Of a DNA stretch of 64,000 bases, positions 50,612-59,186 are shown in pieces; the stretch's first letter is position 1; each line of letters opens with the position of its first letter. The stretch is from the NCBI GenBank assembly GCA_019633425.1, contig WSUB01000131.1, positions 55,840 to 119,839 on the forward strand. Reading direction: 5' to 3'. The translations under genes were made by a program, and so were the position numbers. This DNA is from Tulasnella sp. 424 (lineage: Eukaryota; Basidiomycota; Agaricomycetes; Cantharellales; Tulasnellaceae). The notes beneath the pieces were generated by a model that saw nothing but the letters and a program-made list of their open reading frames with translations, was not told the origin of the DNA and ran no database searches.

Positions 50612-50723
50612 GTGCATTTATTGCATGGCAAATCGCCCCTCAGCAACCATCACGCTCACTCTTCCACCGCACACTCCATTCGCCCTCTAAATCGTTTTCT
50701 GTACCCCTCACATTCCTATCAAA

Positions 50724-51563
50724 ATGTCTGCCACTGGCTCTTTCAACACCCAGGAGGTCCACCTCTGGAATAATCCCCAGGCACAAACTTCCAAGGTCAT
50801 TAACTTCCCCAAAGCATATGTCGCCGCTCCCCGCATTCCTGTCGGTCTCACCTCGGTCGACATGCAATCCGGAACCAACCAACGTGTTCGAGCCTACCCA
50901 GACAACGTCGATAGCCAGAAGTTCACCGCGCATATCGATACCTGGGCCGATACCGTGCTCTATTCCGCTGGCTTGGATTACCTCGTCGAAAAGCCCGCCG
51001 ACCTCGACTTCCAGTCCGGCGAGTTCAGCACCCAGGACGACCATTCTTGGGACAAGCCTCAGCTGCAGACCTCGCGCCGTATCAACTTCGAACGTCCCTT
51101 CGTTACTACTCCCAAAGTCCTAGTTTTCCTCAAGGAGTGGGACATGGGCGGAGGATCCAGCTCTCGCGTCAGGACCTACACCTCGGACGTCGACCCCAAA
51201 GGCTTCACCATCCATATCGATACCTGGGCCGACACGAAACTCTACTCGGCTATCGCCGGCTGGGTTGCCTACCCTGAGGACAAGGACTACATCTACAGCG
51301 GCACAGCCAACACCATGGACGTCCGCCCTTGGCAGGATCCTATACTGCAAAACCACAAGGATATCAGCTTCCAAGGCACTCAGTTCTGGAGGAAGCCTAG
51401 TGTCTTCTTGGCTCTCAACTCTATCGACATCTCCACCGAAACGAACTGTCGGGTCAGGGCTTACGTGGACAACGTTCAAACTGGAGGCATGACTTGGCAC
51501 ATCGACAGCTGGGCGGATACGAAGCTCTGGTCTGCGGGAATCAGCTATATTGCCTTCAACTAA
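50724..51563 (+). CDS. H-type lectin with three tandem domains
   Basis: Single exon, 279 residues, no signal peptide, as usual for cytoplasmic fungal lectins. It consists of three H-type lectin units of about 90 residues (roughly 5-92, 95-187 and 190-279). Each starts with a FNTQEVHLWNN/FSTQDDHSWDK/NTMDVRPWQDP segment, continues with a strand such as INFPKAYVAAPRIPVGL, and closes with HIDTWADT or HIDSWADT. H-type lectins (Helix pomatia agglutinin fold) bind N-acetylgalactosamine or galactose and usually work as trimers of six-stranded sandwiches; three fused copies could form one trimer. Fungal family members are associated with fruiting bodies and defence against grazers; sugar specificity here is unknown. 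The gene ends 375 bp before a transposon-like insertion. Confidence 0.92.
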   Translation: MSATGSFNTQEVHLWNNPQAQTSKVINFPKAYVAAPRIPVGLTSVDMQSGTNQRVRAYPDNVDSQKFTAHIDTWADTVLYSAGLDYLVEKPADLDFQSGEFSTQDDHSWDKPQLQTSRRINFERPFVTTPKVLVFLKEWDMGGGSSSRVRTYTSDVDPKGFTIHIDTWADTKLYSAIAGWVAYPEDKDYIYSGTANTMDVRPWQDPILQNHKDISFQGTQFWRKPSVFLALNSIDISTETNCRVRAYVDNVQTGGMTWHIDSWADTKLWSAGISYIAFN

Positions 51564-51933
51564 AGTCAGTATTTTTTGTGGGTGCCAATTCGTATCTTAC
51601 GCTAACGTAGGCCCGGGCTTCTTTAGGAAAGTTTGTGGTCGGATTAAAAAGAAAGTCGATGGACTTTAGTTCTTGTGCTCTGTAGTCCCCATAAATCATA
51701 AAATGAATGAAGTGTGTTATCGAATAGTTTTGGCAGAGGACCTGGTTATCAAGGAGTTGAGACGTAATGCGGTCTTTGCGGCTCTGCGAGATTTCGAATG
51801 GTGAGGCAATCAGGTGTAGCAAAGATAGATCCAGGCTGTCCTTTGGCGCGCTCAAGAGGATTTGAACGTATTCTAAGATATGTTCGTGGGAAAGGAAACA
51901 GGCACACCGGGCGAGATTTAGGCCAGCCGCCAA
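51556..51933 (-). other. Open frame truncated at the element insertion site
   Basis: A minus-strand frame of about 125 codons (ARCACFLSHEHILEYVQILL, SPFEISQSRKDRITSQLLDN) runs up to the target duplication at 51930. Bridging to 59187 on the far side adds only five more codons before a stop. It overlaps the lectin stop by a few bases. Family unknown; it may be an exon of a gene split by the insertion. Confidence 0.25.
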
Positions 51934-51938
51934 GCTAT
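51930..51938. repeat. Left target-site duplication
   Basis: CCAAGCTAT, identical in the same orientation to 59178-59186, directly abutting the inverted repeats. Confidence 0.88.
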
Positions 51939-52088
51939 TAGCCTCCCAGTCTCAGGCGTGTCGTTGGTGGTCACGTGTACTCAATTTGCACCCGTGGGAC
52001 CAAACAAGTTTGGTGGGTGCAGAGTATCCCCCAAGAACGCCTGACGTACTTCGTAGGGTGCCATCGCCGAAACGCGCGCCATACAGTA
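51939..52088 (+). repeat. Left terminal inverted repeat (150 bp)
   Basis: Inverted match to 59028-59177 with a single T/G difference near base 30; the match extends five more bases with one further mismatch. It contains TCACGTG and an inner palindrome (CCAAAC at 52000-52005 with GTTTGG at 52008-52013, inside GCACCC/GGGTGC). Confidence 0.9.
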
Positions 52089-52093
52089 TCGTA

Positions 52094-53496
52094 GCGGCGC
52101 ACACGCCATTCCCCGACTCTACCTCAGTACCTAAATCCATCAGCATTAATATTAGTATATATACGAAGGAAACAATTTAATCTTCTCAAAGCGGCTCACT
52201 CATCGCGTGAGAGTACCTCCCTGATATAGCCCGAGACAATTAGGGGCGAAAAAATGCGTAGGCACAACAATTGCTGCAAGGCTTTGGAAGTCCAATGGAA
52301 AGGATAAGCTTGTAAATTATGAAGTAGAACTCCACAATATGGACCATCTGCACGTGGATAGCGTAGCACCCCGCCCTTGTCCAACATCATATGAGCTTCC
52401 TCTTACAAGATGACCTTCCCAATCCCCCTCTCCCATTGCTTACTCGGGGCGACGACGACGACGACGACGACAAGAAAAAGAATGACAACGCCAACACCGC
52501 TGACGCCCACCGACAAAACCGAAAACCCACTCACAACCAACCGCTGGCCGAGCTCAGCCATCCTCTGACGCCTCTACCGCATCAGCCGGACACGTGATGG
52601 GTTGGGCTCACATTGGCATCAGCTTACGCACAAAGAGCGATGTCGCCCGTGCCGGAATCAAACAGTTGCCCGGTGGGGGATTTTAGATAGATAGTTTTTG
52701 TAAATAGAAAATAATGTAGTTATTTTTATCTAAATACACTATAGCTCTGTATACCCCAGACCGCGCAATGTCAACCAAAACTGCTCTTTGGTTTACTGGG
52801 CCGCGGCGCGTGGAATCGCGTAGGGGACCAAATGTGACGTTACGGTCACATTTATCGTTCTTTTCTTTCTTTTTTTGAAGCGAGTGCCGCGCGCGGAGAA
52901 ACGTGGACAGATATTTGTTGTTCTGGGGGTTTAATTCGCCATGGAGGGCGTGGGGGGATGTTTCTTAGGTCGGGATCGTATAGAGGATGTTGAATAAGAC
53001 TCTGAGGCACGGGAAACGCGCCGATTTTTTCGAGGTGTAAGCCCTAATATCCGCGGAGAATCACCCGAGAGCCATTATACCTCTGGTGGTATTGGGTTTT
53101 GGAGTTCCCTTTGAATTCCATCTACACTACCCTCCATACGCGGCCTACGAGATTGTGTGACGACATCGCCGCTCTCCGACCGGCCCACCACTTACAAATA
53201 TCGATATCGAGCCATAAAGCATCGAGGCTTACAATCCCAAATGGTTGTTCACCGCTCGTCATGTGGTACGCATTATGAGGTAATAAGTAGCTAAAGAGGG
53301 GGGTAGATACGGACTCGGAAGACCACTCCATTGGTATTGAGCGGATGCTGAGATAAGCCAGCCACGGGGTGGGAATTTCATACCTGAAACCACATGAAAC
53401 GCGTACGTCCAGCCCCGACAAAACCCTCCTCTACTACGTAGAGTCGGGGACCGTACCCCAATAACGACCCCCGTTCCAACCACCCACCCTCAGATC
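52094..53496. other. Element left interior, non-coding
   Basis: Contains a GAC trinucleotide run near 52449-52470, an AT-rich block at 52680-52745, and a 64-codon minus frame at 52196-52390 (DKGGVLRYPRADGPYCGVLL) of unknown meaning. It probably holds the DUF6589 promoter. No gene assigned. Confidence 0.4.
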
Positions 53497-56443
53497 ATGG
53501 CCTCACAGCAGACTGGAATCACAGGAGAGCTATATGAGAATGAGTCTGAACATCGGAAAGACATAGCTGGCAGGGTTTCAGCTATCTTAGACGCTTTAGA
53601 GGCGGAAAATCTCGAACTGGGTGAGTTCCTCACTGCTCTCGCCGGGATCGACAACCCAAGATGTCAGAAGGAGCGCCGCTTCGCTATGACGCGATCAAAG
53701 CTCTACTCAAGCTCTCACTTCACGAACCTTATCCGTCGCTGGTATCGACACCGTCCCAACATGAACGGTCCGAGAAAGAAAATGCTTGAACTCGCTACGG
53801 AAGAGCTCCTCAGAACCTGCGATCAAGAAATGCTACGCTTCGATAAAAGAATGACTAATATACCCACTAATCATGCTATGCTCAAGGCCTTTAGCTTTGT
53901 TGAGCTGATGGAATGGGCTCGGTCCGAGGAAGGGTTGCCGACGCTGTGGAGTCTCCTTGACGGCGTTGCCCAGAGGCCCCGAGCGCGACTAGAGAATACG
54001 GAGAAGGATCCTTCAATGGTGTGTTTCTCACTATGAGACATGAAGCGCACCATACTGACTTGCTTGGTTTAAGATGCTTGTTGTCGTCCTGGGACAGCTG
54101 TCGTATTCACGCTCAACACACAACAATTGGATGCAGCAAGTCCTCTCCGTGTTTCTGGAGGGCATCGGAGTTCCGACTCGTGCCTTTGAGCTCATGCATC
54201 AAATTGGTCTAACTCTGTCTCTCAAGTGGTCTCAGAATGCTGTCGGAACGCTGTCACAGGACAACCTGACTCGGATGGCTCAGGACCTCTTGGATCACGC
54301 GTTCTTCATGAGCGGTGACAATGTAAACATTCGAGAACGCGTCTTCTCTCAGCGCCTGCATAACAGAAATCGCTTTGACAGTGGGACCGCTGTAACTCTC
54401 TTCATCACGCAGCAACCGCCACTCCGTTCCGACCTTGCGGCCGAATATCGCCGACTGCACGGCCAGCATGCTACAATCGGGTATCCCGACTTCTATGACC
54501 GTGACGCTCTGATCAGACTGCAAAATCTAAAAGAGTATCACATCCTAAATGTCCTTCTCACCTCACCGTACTTCGACCATTACAAACATAAAAAGCACCC
54601 AGCACTCAGATCTCCCCCCCGCCGTCAGTCTTGCTGCTTCTGGACCATCAAACGCTATGAAGATGTACGTTATCAAAACGATGAAAATCGATCAGGCCTC
54701 CCTGGAAGGCAACGTGCAGTGGGTTATGGAGGCTGTCAAGCAAATCGGATACGGTGGTACATTGGACGCAAAAAAAACCCTCGCTACTTCGACCATCATT
54801 CCTATAGTCGGAGATGAGCTCACTCATAAATGTCTTCGACGCATCCGTCGCCTTCGCGGGCGGGACCATAACTGTCTCGAACGATTCGACTTTACCGACC
54901 AAGTCTTCGGATGGTTCCATGCCGAAATGGCACTCGCACAAGCACTATGGCAGCTCCATAGTGGTTCAAGACTTGGTACGGGATTGAGTCGCGACGTATC
55001 GCTTCTCAAGAGAATTCACTTTCCTGGTCGGAGAGAAAAGGGTGCGCAGACGGACTTTGATGGGACGGACGATAGAAGGGAGGAACAGGCTTCCGCATCG
55101 GCAAAGAACGACACAAAGGCCAAAGGTCCAACGGCCAAAGAAGCATCCCAGATATGCTATCACGATCTTGACGAGCTTATTCACCATTCGTTTACCGGAC
55201 ACGTGCTGGCAGTCTGGGTGAAGGAGGCTGGAGTTTCGGATCTTGACGGCCTGAAGACCTGGAATCCCGCTCCAGAGGAGCTGGTCCAACTCAAGAAGAA
55301 AATATTGAACGACTATGCGTCAACTCGCGCTCTTCCAAAGGGAAAGCCTGAAGATCTTAATCGCTTGACCAAAGCTCAGAAGAAAGCTGCCGAAGAGGCT
55401 AAGTCTAACGATGATCCGGACGCTACCGAAAGCGCAAAGAACCAAGCTGCAATATTTTTTAACTCCGCTCGATTTATGAGAGACGCTTTAAACTACATTA
55501 CTCTACGCGCCGCAATCAGAGCTGGAGATGTGAGGGTAATGGAAGATATGCTGCCAATCTTGGCTTTGTTCTTCAAAGGGTCGGGTCGGCCGAAGTATGC
55601 GATTTTGATGCTCGAGGAGATGCAGAGACTGAAAAACGAGTATCCAGCTGAGTACAGGTCAGTTTTGATAATTAAAAGAGCAGCGGATTTCTCTTAATTA
55701 TCAAACTACATAGGGAATGGCGGCTCAAGCACTGCTGGGTTGTGAGCGGCACCGGGCGGCCGGGAGACTTCTATCCTGTCGATCTAGCACAAGAACACAA
55801 TAACCGAGATCTCAAAGTCGTTCACGCAGCAAAAGGATCGAATGCCTCCTGGGCTTATATTGCCAAGATGTCGCCTGTTATTCCTACCTTCAAGGAAGTC
55901 ACAAACACAATCGCTCGGTCATTTCCGACGACGATCAACGGAAATAAGCACTCTTCTCCCGATGAATGGCCGGATATTCAGCGACTTGCTGAGTTTTATA
56001 TCTCCGAACGCTTGGCATATCAGGTTCCAGAGTCGGATGGAGACAGCCGAACCAAGCGGGTCAATGCGGTCAAGGTGTCGACAGACGCACTGAACTCAGG
56101 CACCAACGCATTACAGTCGAAGGCCTGGCTTGCGGAGTGGATAAACAACCGACGAGTAGTTATTTCAACACTAGAACTATGGAAGGAAGAAGAAGAACGG
56201 GATGTAACTATCGTCTCTGAACAGTCGGAACTCGATGGCGAGGACCTCTCAACAGCAGGGGACAATGAGCACCTGGAACAGATGAAGACGGAACATGAAA
56301 CAGAGACTTACAGAGATTATGAGTCGGATGTTGACGGGTCGGATATTGAGTATGAGCCAAGTGGCGAGTGGAGCTTTCGCCTGGACGACTCACCCCGAAC
56401 ATCTATGGAGCGGGCGGCTTTTGTTTCGATTTCCTTCGAGTAG
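53497..56443 (+). pseudogene. DUF6589 protein, putative DDE-type transposase, frameshifted
   Basis: Three exons, 53497-54018, 54074-55657 and 55714-56443. The sum is one base more than a whole number of codons. The reading frame changes at the C7 run near 54614-54620; removing one C restores a 944-codon protein, so this copy is either broken by one insertion or mis-sequenced. Family landmarks are FMSGDNVNIRERVFSQRLHN (about 54305-54360), PIVGDELTHKCLRRIRRLRG with FGWFHAEMALAQALW downstream (from about 54802), and CWVVSGTGRPGDFYPVDLAQ followed by EHN (about 55735-55800). Conserved D, D and E in these three blocks fit a RNase-H-like DDE transposase, which is my inference. The acidic, coil-like C-terminus is variable. 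DUF6589 proteins are multicopy in agaricomycetes. Convergent with the helicase. Confidence 0.8.
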
Positions 56444-56620
56444 TAAAGCTTTGAGAAGCTGAGGCAAATAATATTGGAGCAATTGAGTTTGCATTTCCTC
56501 TATTCGTTGCGGAAGAGCTGGTCGTGGTAGAATGTTGTGTTGCGGTTTGTGTGCTGCCGGCAAGGAGAGGTGTCGATGCATGCAGAGAAGTATAAGAAGA
56601 GCGAGTGGATGGTAGATTGG

Positions 56621-58968
56621 TCAAAGTCGAAAGAGGGGGACAAGCTGTATAGAATGATGAGGTTTGTGTACCCGACTGTGAGGCCCCATATTGCTGAAGT
56701 GCGGGGTTGTACGGTGCTTCGGCGAGTCTGGGTCGCTTCTTCTCGGCTTTGACCTCTTCTTTAGCTTTCTTTTTGCGTCCGCAGCTTCTTGAACCTTTCT
56801 ACGTCGCTCAGATTCTTCGTTATCTAGTGTCTTCTGGATTTCGAGAACTTCGGGACCGAACACGTGTTGGAGATGCCAACGTGTCGTCGTTACCTTGTCA
56901 AAATCTTCGATCTCCGTCATACCTTGCCTCGCTGCTATCTGGCGAAGGTGCTGGTCCGACAGAAGGAACTTTTCCCCAAGGTCATTTGCCAGAGCGTCCG
57001 TTTGAGAAGTGTTGTGTCTCCAGTTCCACAGTTTGGCTCGAGCTTTTTGAAGAAATGTGTTGGTTCGTCTCTGAAACAATGCCGCTGAAGAAGGCTCTTC
57101 CGGTTCAGAATCCGAATCATCTGAATTGCTAATGGACTCGGGATCGAGGTTTGTTCCATTAACAAGCGTCTCGTTGGCAAGCTCCATTTCGACGTCGTTC
57201 CTGGCACAACGGTCACAGCACAGATAGCCACTTTCGTTATCTGAAAAAGCATAGCATTAGAATGATCTTCAGAAGCACAAGAGGAGGGACTGGAACCTTG
57301 ATCTTCACGAGCTGGGTTAGAATAGACTCGGTCGAGGAGAGCGCGACGACAGACCGGCTCCCTAATGAATAGAAGAAGATCCTTCTCGACCTTTTTAGAC
57401 TCTTTTTTCGCGTCGGGTTCCTGTGTAGTATCAGTAGCATTCCGAGTCTGTTCAGAGTGCAGTGCAGCGTGAAGAGCAACTTCATGAGTTCGGGGCTCGG
57501 CTGGTTCAGCGTCGGTGTAGGGGTCCACTGGAGGTTCATCTCCCGGGTCGAGGTTAGCATCCGCAACACCTTCACCTTCAGAAGCCAACAATTCTCCCCC
57601 CTCGTACACAGAGCGTTCAACAATAAGTCTTGCCCTGACCTGGTCTTCCGTACTCCGCCCGGCTCTCCCAGCTCTCTGAACCCACACCGAGAGGCTTGAG
57701 GGACATCCGTAGTTGCCGACATATTTGACACCATCCATATCGAGTCCCTAGAATAAAATCTAGCATCAGATGATTAACAGAACGATTCAAGTGAGAGGTA
57801 TACCATGGCCAAGGCTTCAGAAGCAAACACCGCTTTGATCTTGCTCTCGGCCTTCATATATTCGGTGAGGATGCGCGCCTTCGTCTCCTCGCCACGGAGC
57901 GAATGGTAACACTCGACCTGAGGATGAAGATGATTTGGGATCATGTCTAAAAAGGTGTAGAACAGCCGTTCGCATTGATCAAGCGACTGCGCGAATACAA
58001 TACCCTTCTCGAGGACGGCGTCTTGACCCAAGTCTTGGGGGATCATGAATGCCAGGTCTGAAGAGAGATCATTCTTCTTTCCAGTCATCTGAACAGCCTC
58101 CCAGCAGATATTGGGCCTATTGTTGCCTAGGTTGATGAACATAGTGCGTCGTTCCTTGAAGCCGAGGTGTCGTCGGACGTCTGCCCTCACGTCAGCAGTA
58201 AGAGTTGCTGACAGCGCGAGTACGGGGAGTTTCCGGTTGAGAAAGGATCTGATGGCCGAAACTCTTCCATAGTCGGGCCGGAAATCAGCTCCCCAGGTCG
58301 AGATACAATGTACCTCATCGACAACGAGGTACTCGATGAGCCCCATCGACTTGTTGTCGCCGAGAACCTGAGCCCAGCCCTCATTCGAAAGGATCATCTC
58401 CGGGGACGTTAAGACAACTTGATATCCTCCGGCCTTGATTCTCTGAATAACTTCCTGTCACTGTTCCGTGCTACCAAAAAGAGCAAAACAAACTTACGGC
58501 GAAAATTGACGTGGAGGCCGTTTGCCCGTTGACCGCCACCGCCTTCAGACCCATCTTGTTGAATGCATTTGCCTACAAAGCCTGATAAGCGAAGCTATAT
58601 GATCTCTCATGGATAACTGTTCTTATACCTGACTGATTTGGAGCGCGTTCAGCGGTGAAAGTACAAGCGCGAAGCCTTGCTGCTTCAGAAGCATCGGAAG
58701 GATTATTGGCAAACTCTTGCCTCCCCCTGTTGGCGCTACAACCAAGCAGTCTACACCACTCAGAATCGTAGCAGACGCGTGGGCCTGCCATGTGAAGGGT
58801 GTTTTCTGAAGGAGCTCTTGACATTTGATCGTGACGCGTTCCACAGATTCATCGTAGAGGTCGTCAAACACGTCTTTGGGTCCCTAATATAATATGGCTA
58901 TTAACGCGAATTAAAGTACAAGGACTGTAGAGGCGCAATCGTACTTCGATAAAAGACGGGTAGGTCAT
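56621..58968 (-). CDS. RecQ-like DNA helicase of the element
   Basis: Six exons, 58968-58945, 58883-58629, 58572-58498, 58454-57804, 57747-57297 and 57240-56621, sum exactly to 692 codons. Motif I is APTGGGKS (about residue 55), with DEVHCISTWGADFRPDYGR as motif II, LALSATLTADV as motif III and VQRAGRAGR as motif VI. A C-terminal region with LFIREPVCRRALLDRVY and CCDRCARND, probably zinc-binding, follows, then a basic tail. This is the SF2 RecQ core without an evident HRDC domain. It should unwind DNA 3'-5' using ATP, in the nucleus. The ATG is 60 bp from the right inverted repeat, so its promoter lies in or near the repeat. Its role in transposition is inferred. All frames are intact. Confidence 0.85.
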
Positions 58969-59027
58969 TGTGAGCGGGAGGTTCAGGAGGGAGGATTGGT
59001 GAGGGTGGTGTCGGTGAGGGGGTACGG

Positions 59028-59177
59028 TACTGTATGGCGCGCGTTTCGGCGATGGCACCCTACGAAGTACGTCAGGCGTTCTTGGGGGATACTCTGCACC
59101 CACCAAACTTGTTTGGTCCCACGGGTGCAAATTGAGTACACGTGACCCCCAACGACACGCCTGAGACTGGGAGGCTA
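59028..59177 (-). repeat. Right terminal inverted repeat (150 bp)
   Basis: Complement of 51939-52088 with one mismatch. Confidence 0.9.
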
Positions 59178-59186
59178 CCAAGCTAT
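59178..59186. repeat. Right target-site duplication
   Basis: CCAAGCTAT, identical to 51930-51938. Confidence 0.88.

Follow-up and report, generated by a model that had tools for sequence, protein, structure and literature searches.

The window analyzed here is a stretch of 64,000 nucleotides from the 119,839-base contig C37 of Tulasnella sp. 424 (Cantharellales, Agaricomycetes; 46.8-Mb assembly). It contains a transposon that encodes a DUF6589 protein and a RecQ-like helicase between terminal inverted repeats (TIRs), flanked by a 9-bp target-site duplication (TSD). Its features are the following:

51939-59177: transposon, flanked on both sides by CCAAGCTAT
51930..51938, no strand: left TSD CCAAGCTAT, 9 bp, perfect
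51939..52088, + strand: left TIR, terminus TAGCCTCCCAG, its last ~9 bases displaced to 53451-53459 by a nested insertion
52089..53450, no strand: nested insertion, a separate repeat of 1,362 bp, boundary ambiguous by one A
53451..53459, + strand: remaining inner bases of the left TIR, from comparison with copies without the insert
53497..56443, + strand: DUF6589 gene, probable transposase, three exons (53497-54018, 54074-55657, 55714-56443), public model FRC04_002015
56621..58968, - strand: RecQ-like helicase gene, exons 58968-58945, 58883-58629, 58572-58498, 58454-57804, 57747-57297 and 57240-56621, public model FRC04_002016
59019..59177, - strand: right TIR, ending ...GGGAGGCTA
59178..59186, no strand: right TSD CCAAGCTAT, 9 bp, perfect

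The inverted arms 51939-52102 and 59014-59177 are 96% complementary, and the first 150 bases of the TIR have a single mismatch, at position 51968. In the left arm of 164 nt, the innermost 14 bases are part of the nested repeat and not of the TIR; the true TIR is ~159 bp long with one mismatch (left, 51939-52088 plus 53451-53459; right, 59019-59177). Inverted ends of the form TAG...CTA delimit the element as a unit, its insertion duplicates 9 bp of the target, and the element measures 5,877 bp without the nested insert. The original prediction, made from the letters of the window, had placed the ends, the 9-bp duplications and both genes at these positions, and inverted-repeat, TSD and profile evidence confirmed all of them. 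Its 150-bp inverted ends are correct for the first 150 bases and fall short of the full TIR, which the insert interrupts. Its description of a complete element stands for the two ends, the TSDs and both genes, and needs qualifying for the DUF6589 frame, which is broken. The window element is real, well bounded and damaged and, by its TIRs, fairly recent.

The two genes are convergent, on opposite strands. DUF6589 starts nearly 40 bases inward of the left TIR (53497) and the helicase about 50 bases inward of the right one (58968); because each gene begins shortly inside one TIR, each TIR may hold the promoter of one gene. The conceptual DUF6589 protein, translated across the frame break, matched PF20231 (DUF6589) with an E-value of 6.3e-98. 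The break lies in exon 54074-55657, at a run of C near 54612-54620, and the public model FRC04_002015 (protein P0001) bypasses it via a predicted intron. Since the skipped stretch aligns as protein with a second DUF6589 copy on contig C427, and the frame continues both there and in a third copy on C280, we think that this intron is the gene caller's way round the break, a real intron being possible.

Six exons make up the helicase gene; its five introns are all GT-AG and 43-61 nt long, and its frame is open over 691 aa. The spliced product matched DEAD (5.1e-24) and Helicase_C (1.8e-13), both above the Pfam cut-offs; its best PDB match was RECQ5 (1.9e-34), in a list led by RecQ proteins. Among the best 120 of 4,560 matches, the closest relatives were agaricomycete proteins, with Trametes, Coprinellus, Ganoderma and Amanita represented; the agaricomycete relatives P0004, P0005 and P0008 aligned over 85-90% of the helicase length, and proteins bearing PF09382 over 46-52%. 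This difference in coverage points to a family of fungal helicases that has a C-terminus of its own; seven members were aligned.

A search of the genome with the left end found 28 places, made up of 18 TIR matches at ten loci and 10 matches to the nested repeat. Two more loci (C17 and C436) were added by a search with the other half of the element, giving at least 12. Both ends were present at seven loci (window, C400, C240, C193, C129, C34, and C16), and the same TAG terminal base was found at all 14 ends of these copies. A perfect 9-bp TSD flanks five of the seven (window, C400, C129, C34, and C16), with no target consensus seen by eye among these five. Four loci had a single end (C44, C197, C323, and C17), and at C436 the match lay within the TIR only, with the helicase present and no DUF6589 match. 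The sizes of two-ended copies began at 192 bp (C34) and 196 bp (C16), which are miniature inverted-repeat transposable elements (MITEs) with little beyond the two TIR ends, and reached 1,855 bp in C400, which retains parts of the helicase and of the 5' end of DUF6589. Deleted copies and MITEs with identical ends have inserted too. The original prediction had advised looking for further copies with different 9-bp duplications, and these were present; its refuting condition, copies with other ends, did not occur at any of the 14 ends of the seven two-ended copies.

To find empty sites, the joined flanks of seven insertions (six of the window family, with C193 left out, plus the C427 element) were compared with the genome. 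There were 42 matches: 26 ran across the C34 MITE junction, 14 were the insertions' own flanks, and 2 reached just one side. Of the 26, two were read in detail. At C34:84648, 240 bases aligned ungapped with TGGTCAGAC present once (88% identity over 289 bases in the joined-flank search), and at C34:73013 the alignment ran through the insertion point, with a diverged target. This genome search gave no empty site for the other six insertions. The 192-bp MITE lies in a family of repeated sequences found mostly on C34, and the empty sites are paralogous; it is in this form, best at C34:84648 with its single target copy, that the empty sites suggested as a check by the original prediction were found. 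The repeated family runs along C34:2529-94524, with members also on C87, C357 and C201, and one of its members holds the MITE.

Scanning the genome with PF20231 produced 13 matches, spread over five contigs (C37, C427, C280, C322, and C414). The C427 element is 6,650 bp long, with TIRs 99.5% identical over 209 bases, a TAG start and a perfect 9-bp TSD, GTTCGAATC, on both sides. It carries DUF6589 and a helicase in the same convergent order as the window element. Its DUF6589 protein is 43% identical to that of the window, and its frame has one in-frame stop; P0002, an annotated protein listed under Tulasnella sp. 425, has stretches that match the C427 frames by eye. A 591-bp relative of this element on C72 has GTTTCGACT on both sides, again a perfect 9-bp TSD. 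At C280, a decayed locus, the two genes again stand in this order, the TIRs are weak, the DUF6589 match contains stops, and the flanking TTGTACTCC and TCGTACTCC agree at 8 of 9 bases. Neither C322 nor C414 showed a helicase match beside DUF6589 in the 9.5 kb examined. The claim that DUF6589 and the helicase are both transposon functions was supported: the pair lies inside TIRs in the window and in C427, and recurs in convergent order at C280.

The TSD of C427 resembles a tRNA B box. A tRNA gene as its insertion target was rejected, as ARAGORN found none in the joined flanks; a tRNA scan of the window found no tRNA genes either. On C414, near the DUF6589 fragment, there is a long near-perfect inverted repeat (L054:4939-5722), with one pair of arms of 187 nt at 95% and two other pairs.

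In a genome scan for the RecQ family, helicases of the transposon kind were found on five of the matched contigs (C37, C400, C427, C280, and C436). Two further loci (C124:27057-28755 and C124:141528-143220) scored above the curated cut-off, are near-duplicates by score, and are probably the host's own RecQ genes. It had been proposed that such elements may inflate host annotation in agaricomycetes, and for this genome we agree: FRC04_002015 and FRC04_002016 are annotated as hypothetical proteins, and the five contigs above carry such helicases in the RecQ scan.

We compared the conserved acids of DUF6589 in the C280, C427 and C322 copies; C414 gave no alignment. D256 (SGDN), D401 (GDELT) and E709 (VDLAQEH) of P0001 are conserved in C280 and C427, and D256 is also kept in the C322 fragment. 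Several other acids are conserved too, and the three could be a candidate DDE triad. DUF6589 is probably the transposon's own, catalytic protein, with its role as transposase read from context. A search of protein databases, by a method that requires shared short words, matched only two Tulasnella proteins, and a scan of viral contigs with the same requirement found no DUF6589. A limited literature search found no mention of DUF6589.

The AcademH lineage of the Academ superfamily was reportedly defined by Kojima in 2020 (Mob DNA 11:15). Whether the window element belongs to a described superfamily carrying a helicase, such as Academ, had been left open by the original prediction. In the excerpts used here, AcademH has a TSD of 9 or 10 bp and AcademX one of 3 or 4, lengths whose difference is attributed to the helicase of the one and the nuclease of the other (PMC10045372), and low copy numbers of AcademH are reported for Basidiomycota, Ascomycota and Mucoromycota (PMC10799480). 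As far as these excerpts go, the window element resembles AcademH in its 9-bp TSD, helicase gene, fungal host (Basidiomycota included) and low copy number, and differs from AcademX, of the same superfamily, which has a TSD of 3-4 bp and encodes a nuclease where AcademH has a helicase. The 9-bp TSD is perfect in five of the seven two-ended copies of the window family and in C427 and C72, that of C280 agrees at 8 of 9 bases, and the helicase has DEAD and Helicase_C above the Pfam cut-offs. Our reading, to which we give a probability of about 0.8, is that the window element is a cut-and-paste DNA transposon of the AcademH type, with DUF6589 as its presumed transposase; it is filed there because TSD length and helicase fit AcademH, and not by transposase homology.

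Several results weigh against this reading. The TSD of C240 matches at 8 of 9 bases, and C193, whose copy looks split by other insertions, has no clear TSD. The NCBIfam recQ_fam profile gave 4.9e-51 and 174 bits, below the curated cut-off of 219.8, and HRDC gave 14.2 bits, below the Pfam cut-off of 23.8; because both score below cut-off, we call the helicase RecQ-like and not RecQ. The AlphaFold model of DUF6589 (two sequences) was unusable, with a mean predicted local distance difference test score (pLDDT) of 31.4. Apart from PF20231, the window and C427 DUF6589 proteins had no Pfam match at E up to 10, and the comparison with AcademH is by description, through TSD and helicase, and not by sequence or transposase homology. 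These last two points favor a separate superfamily outside Academ, with DUF6589 as its transposase and a convergent helicase layout independent of AcademH and KolobokH. We consider this unlikely, as a 9-bp TSD together with a helicase is the AcademH combination (PMC10045372, in excerpt) and AcademH is already known from Basidiomycota (PMC10799480, in excerpt).

The second alternative is a Mutator-like element (MULE) with a very diverged transposase. MULEs typically have 9-bp TSDs and long TIRs, and in both respects the window element is like them. A helicase gene, which the window element has, is not a usual MULE feature, and the two DUF6589 proteins showed no MULE transposase domain at Pfam E up to 10, a result compatible with remote homology. 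We regard a MULE as very improbable.

A KolobokH element would also explain a RecQ-like helicase in a fungal DNA transposon, since KolobokH, in the excerpt available, is restricted to fungi and carries a RecQ helicase (PMC9587614). Kolobok and KolobokH, however, have a 4-bp TTAA TSD (PMC9587614, same excerpt), whereas the TSDs here are 9 bp long and varied in sequence at several copies. In addition, the window helicase is a separate gene on the opposite strand, converging with DUF6589, unlike that of KolobokH. Kolobok and KolobokH were rejected by TSD, with hardly any probability left to them. That two host genes, both annotated as ordinary hypothetical proteins, lie by chance between inverted repeats is the least credible reading. 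A second family and an empty site led to its rejection; the gene pair is present at three loci, where the TSDs are of 9 bp or close to it, and deleted copies and MITEs exist.

For the AcademH-type transposon that we favor, the DUF6589 protein would be a DDE-type transposase. It would bind the ~159-bp TIRs, cleave at their TAG ends and attach these ends to the target strands at points 9 bp apart; D256, D401 and E709 of P0001 are the candidates for its catalytic acids. Expression of the RecQ-like helicase would come from the opposite TIR, and its role is probably to unwind the ends or to assist in resolving and repairing the gap. The short copies would be mobilized in trans. The window copy would later have been hit by a Helitron-like insertion between the TIR and the DUF6589 start. 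Because of this insertion and the broken DUF6589 frame, it is probably no longer autonomous.

The nested repeat at 52089-53450 has near full-length copies at C317, C142 and C447, and related pieces on many contigs. Neither C400 nor C193 has it in its copy of the transposon, and there the TIR passes straight into the DUF6589 leader; C400 reads ...CATACAGTA-CCGTACCCC..., the window sequence minus the insert. Because of this absence, it is read as an insert that entered the transposon later. Helitrons make no target duplication and have a 5' TC and a 3' hairpin. No target duplication was found around the nested repeat in the window (against the C400 empty site) or at C142, C317 and C447, and its 5' TCGTAG is present at three of the six ends compared. 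An asymmetric inverted repeat is formed by CCCCGACTCTAC, which lies about 20 bases in from the 5' end, and GTAGAGTCGGGG, which lies at the 3' end; no CTRR end was noted. The insertion is probably a nonautonomous Helitron-like element, a tentative assignment that draws on general Helitron features. Elsewhere, the transposon copy at L044 and L045 (C193:4217-26331) is apparently split by two further insertions: one lies within a TIR, where the flanking matches overlap by 7 bases, and the other is about 17 kb long.

The value of the finding is that DUF6589 (PF20231), a domain of unknown function, is tied to a mobile element by structure, namely TIRs, 9-bp TSDs, MITEs and an empty site in one genome, and a gene pair at three loci. 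Counts of DUF6589 and RecQ-like helicase genes in fungi should be checked for such elements. The well-bounded TIRs and the non-autonomous copies also provide material for asking why a RecQ-type helicase is present in some cut-and-paste transposons.

Directly to the left of the element, at 50691-51563, we found an open frame with three H-type lectin domains (PF09458, 1.2e-62).
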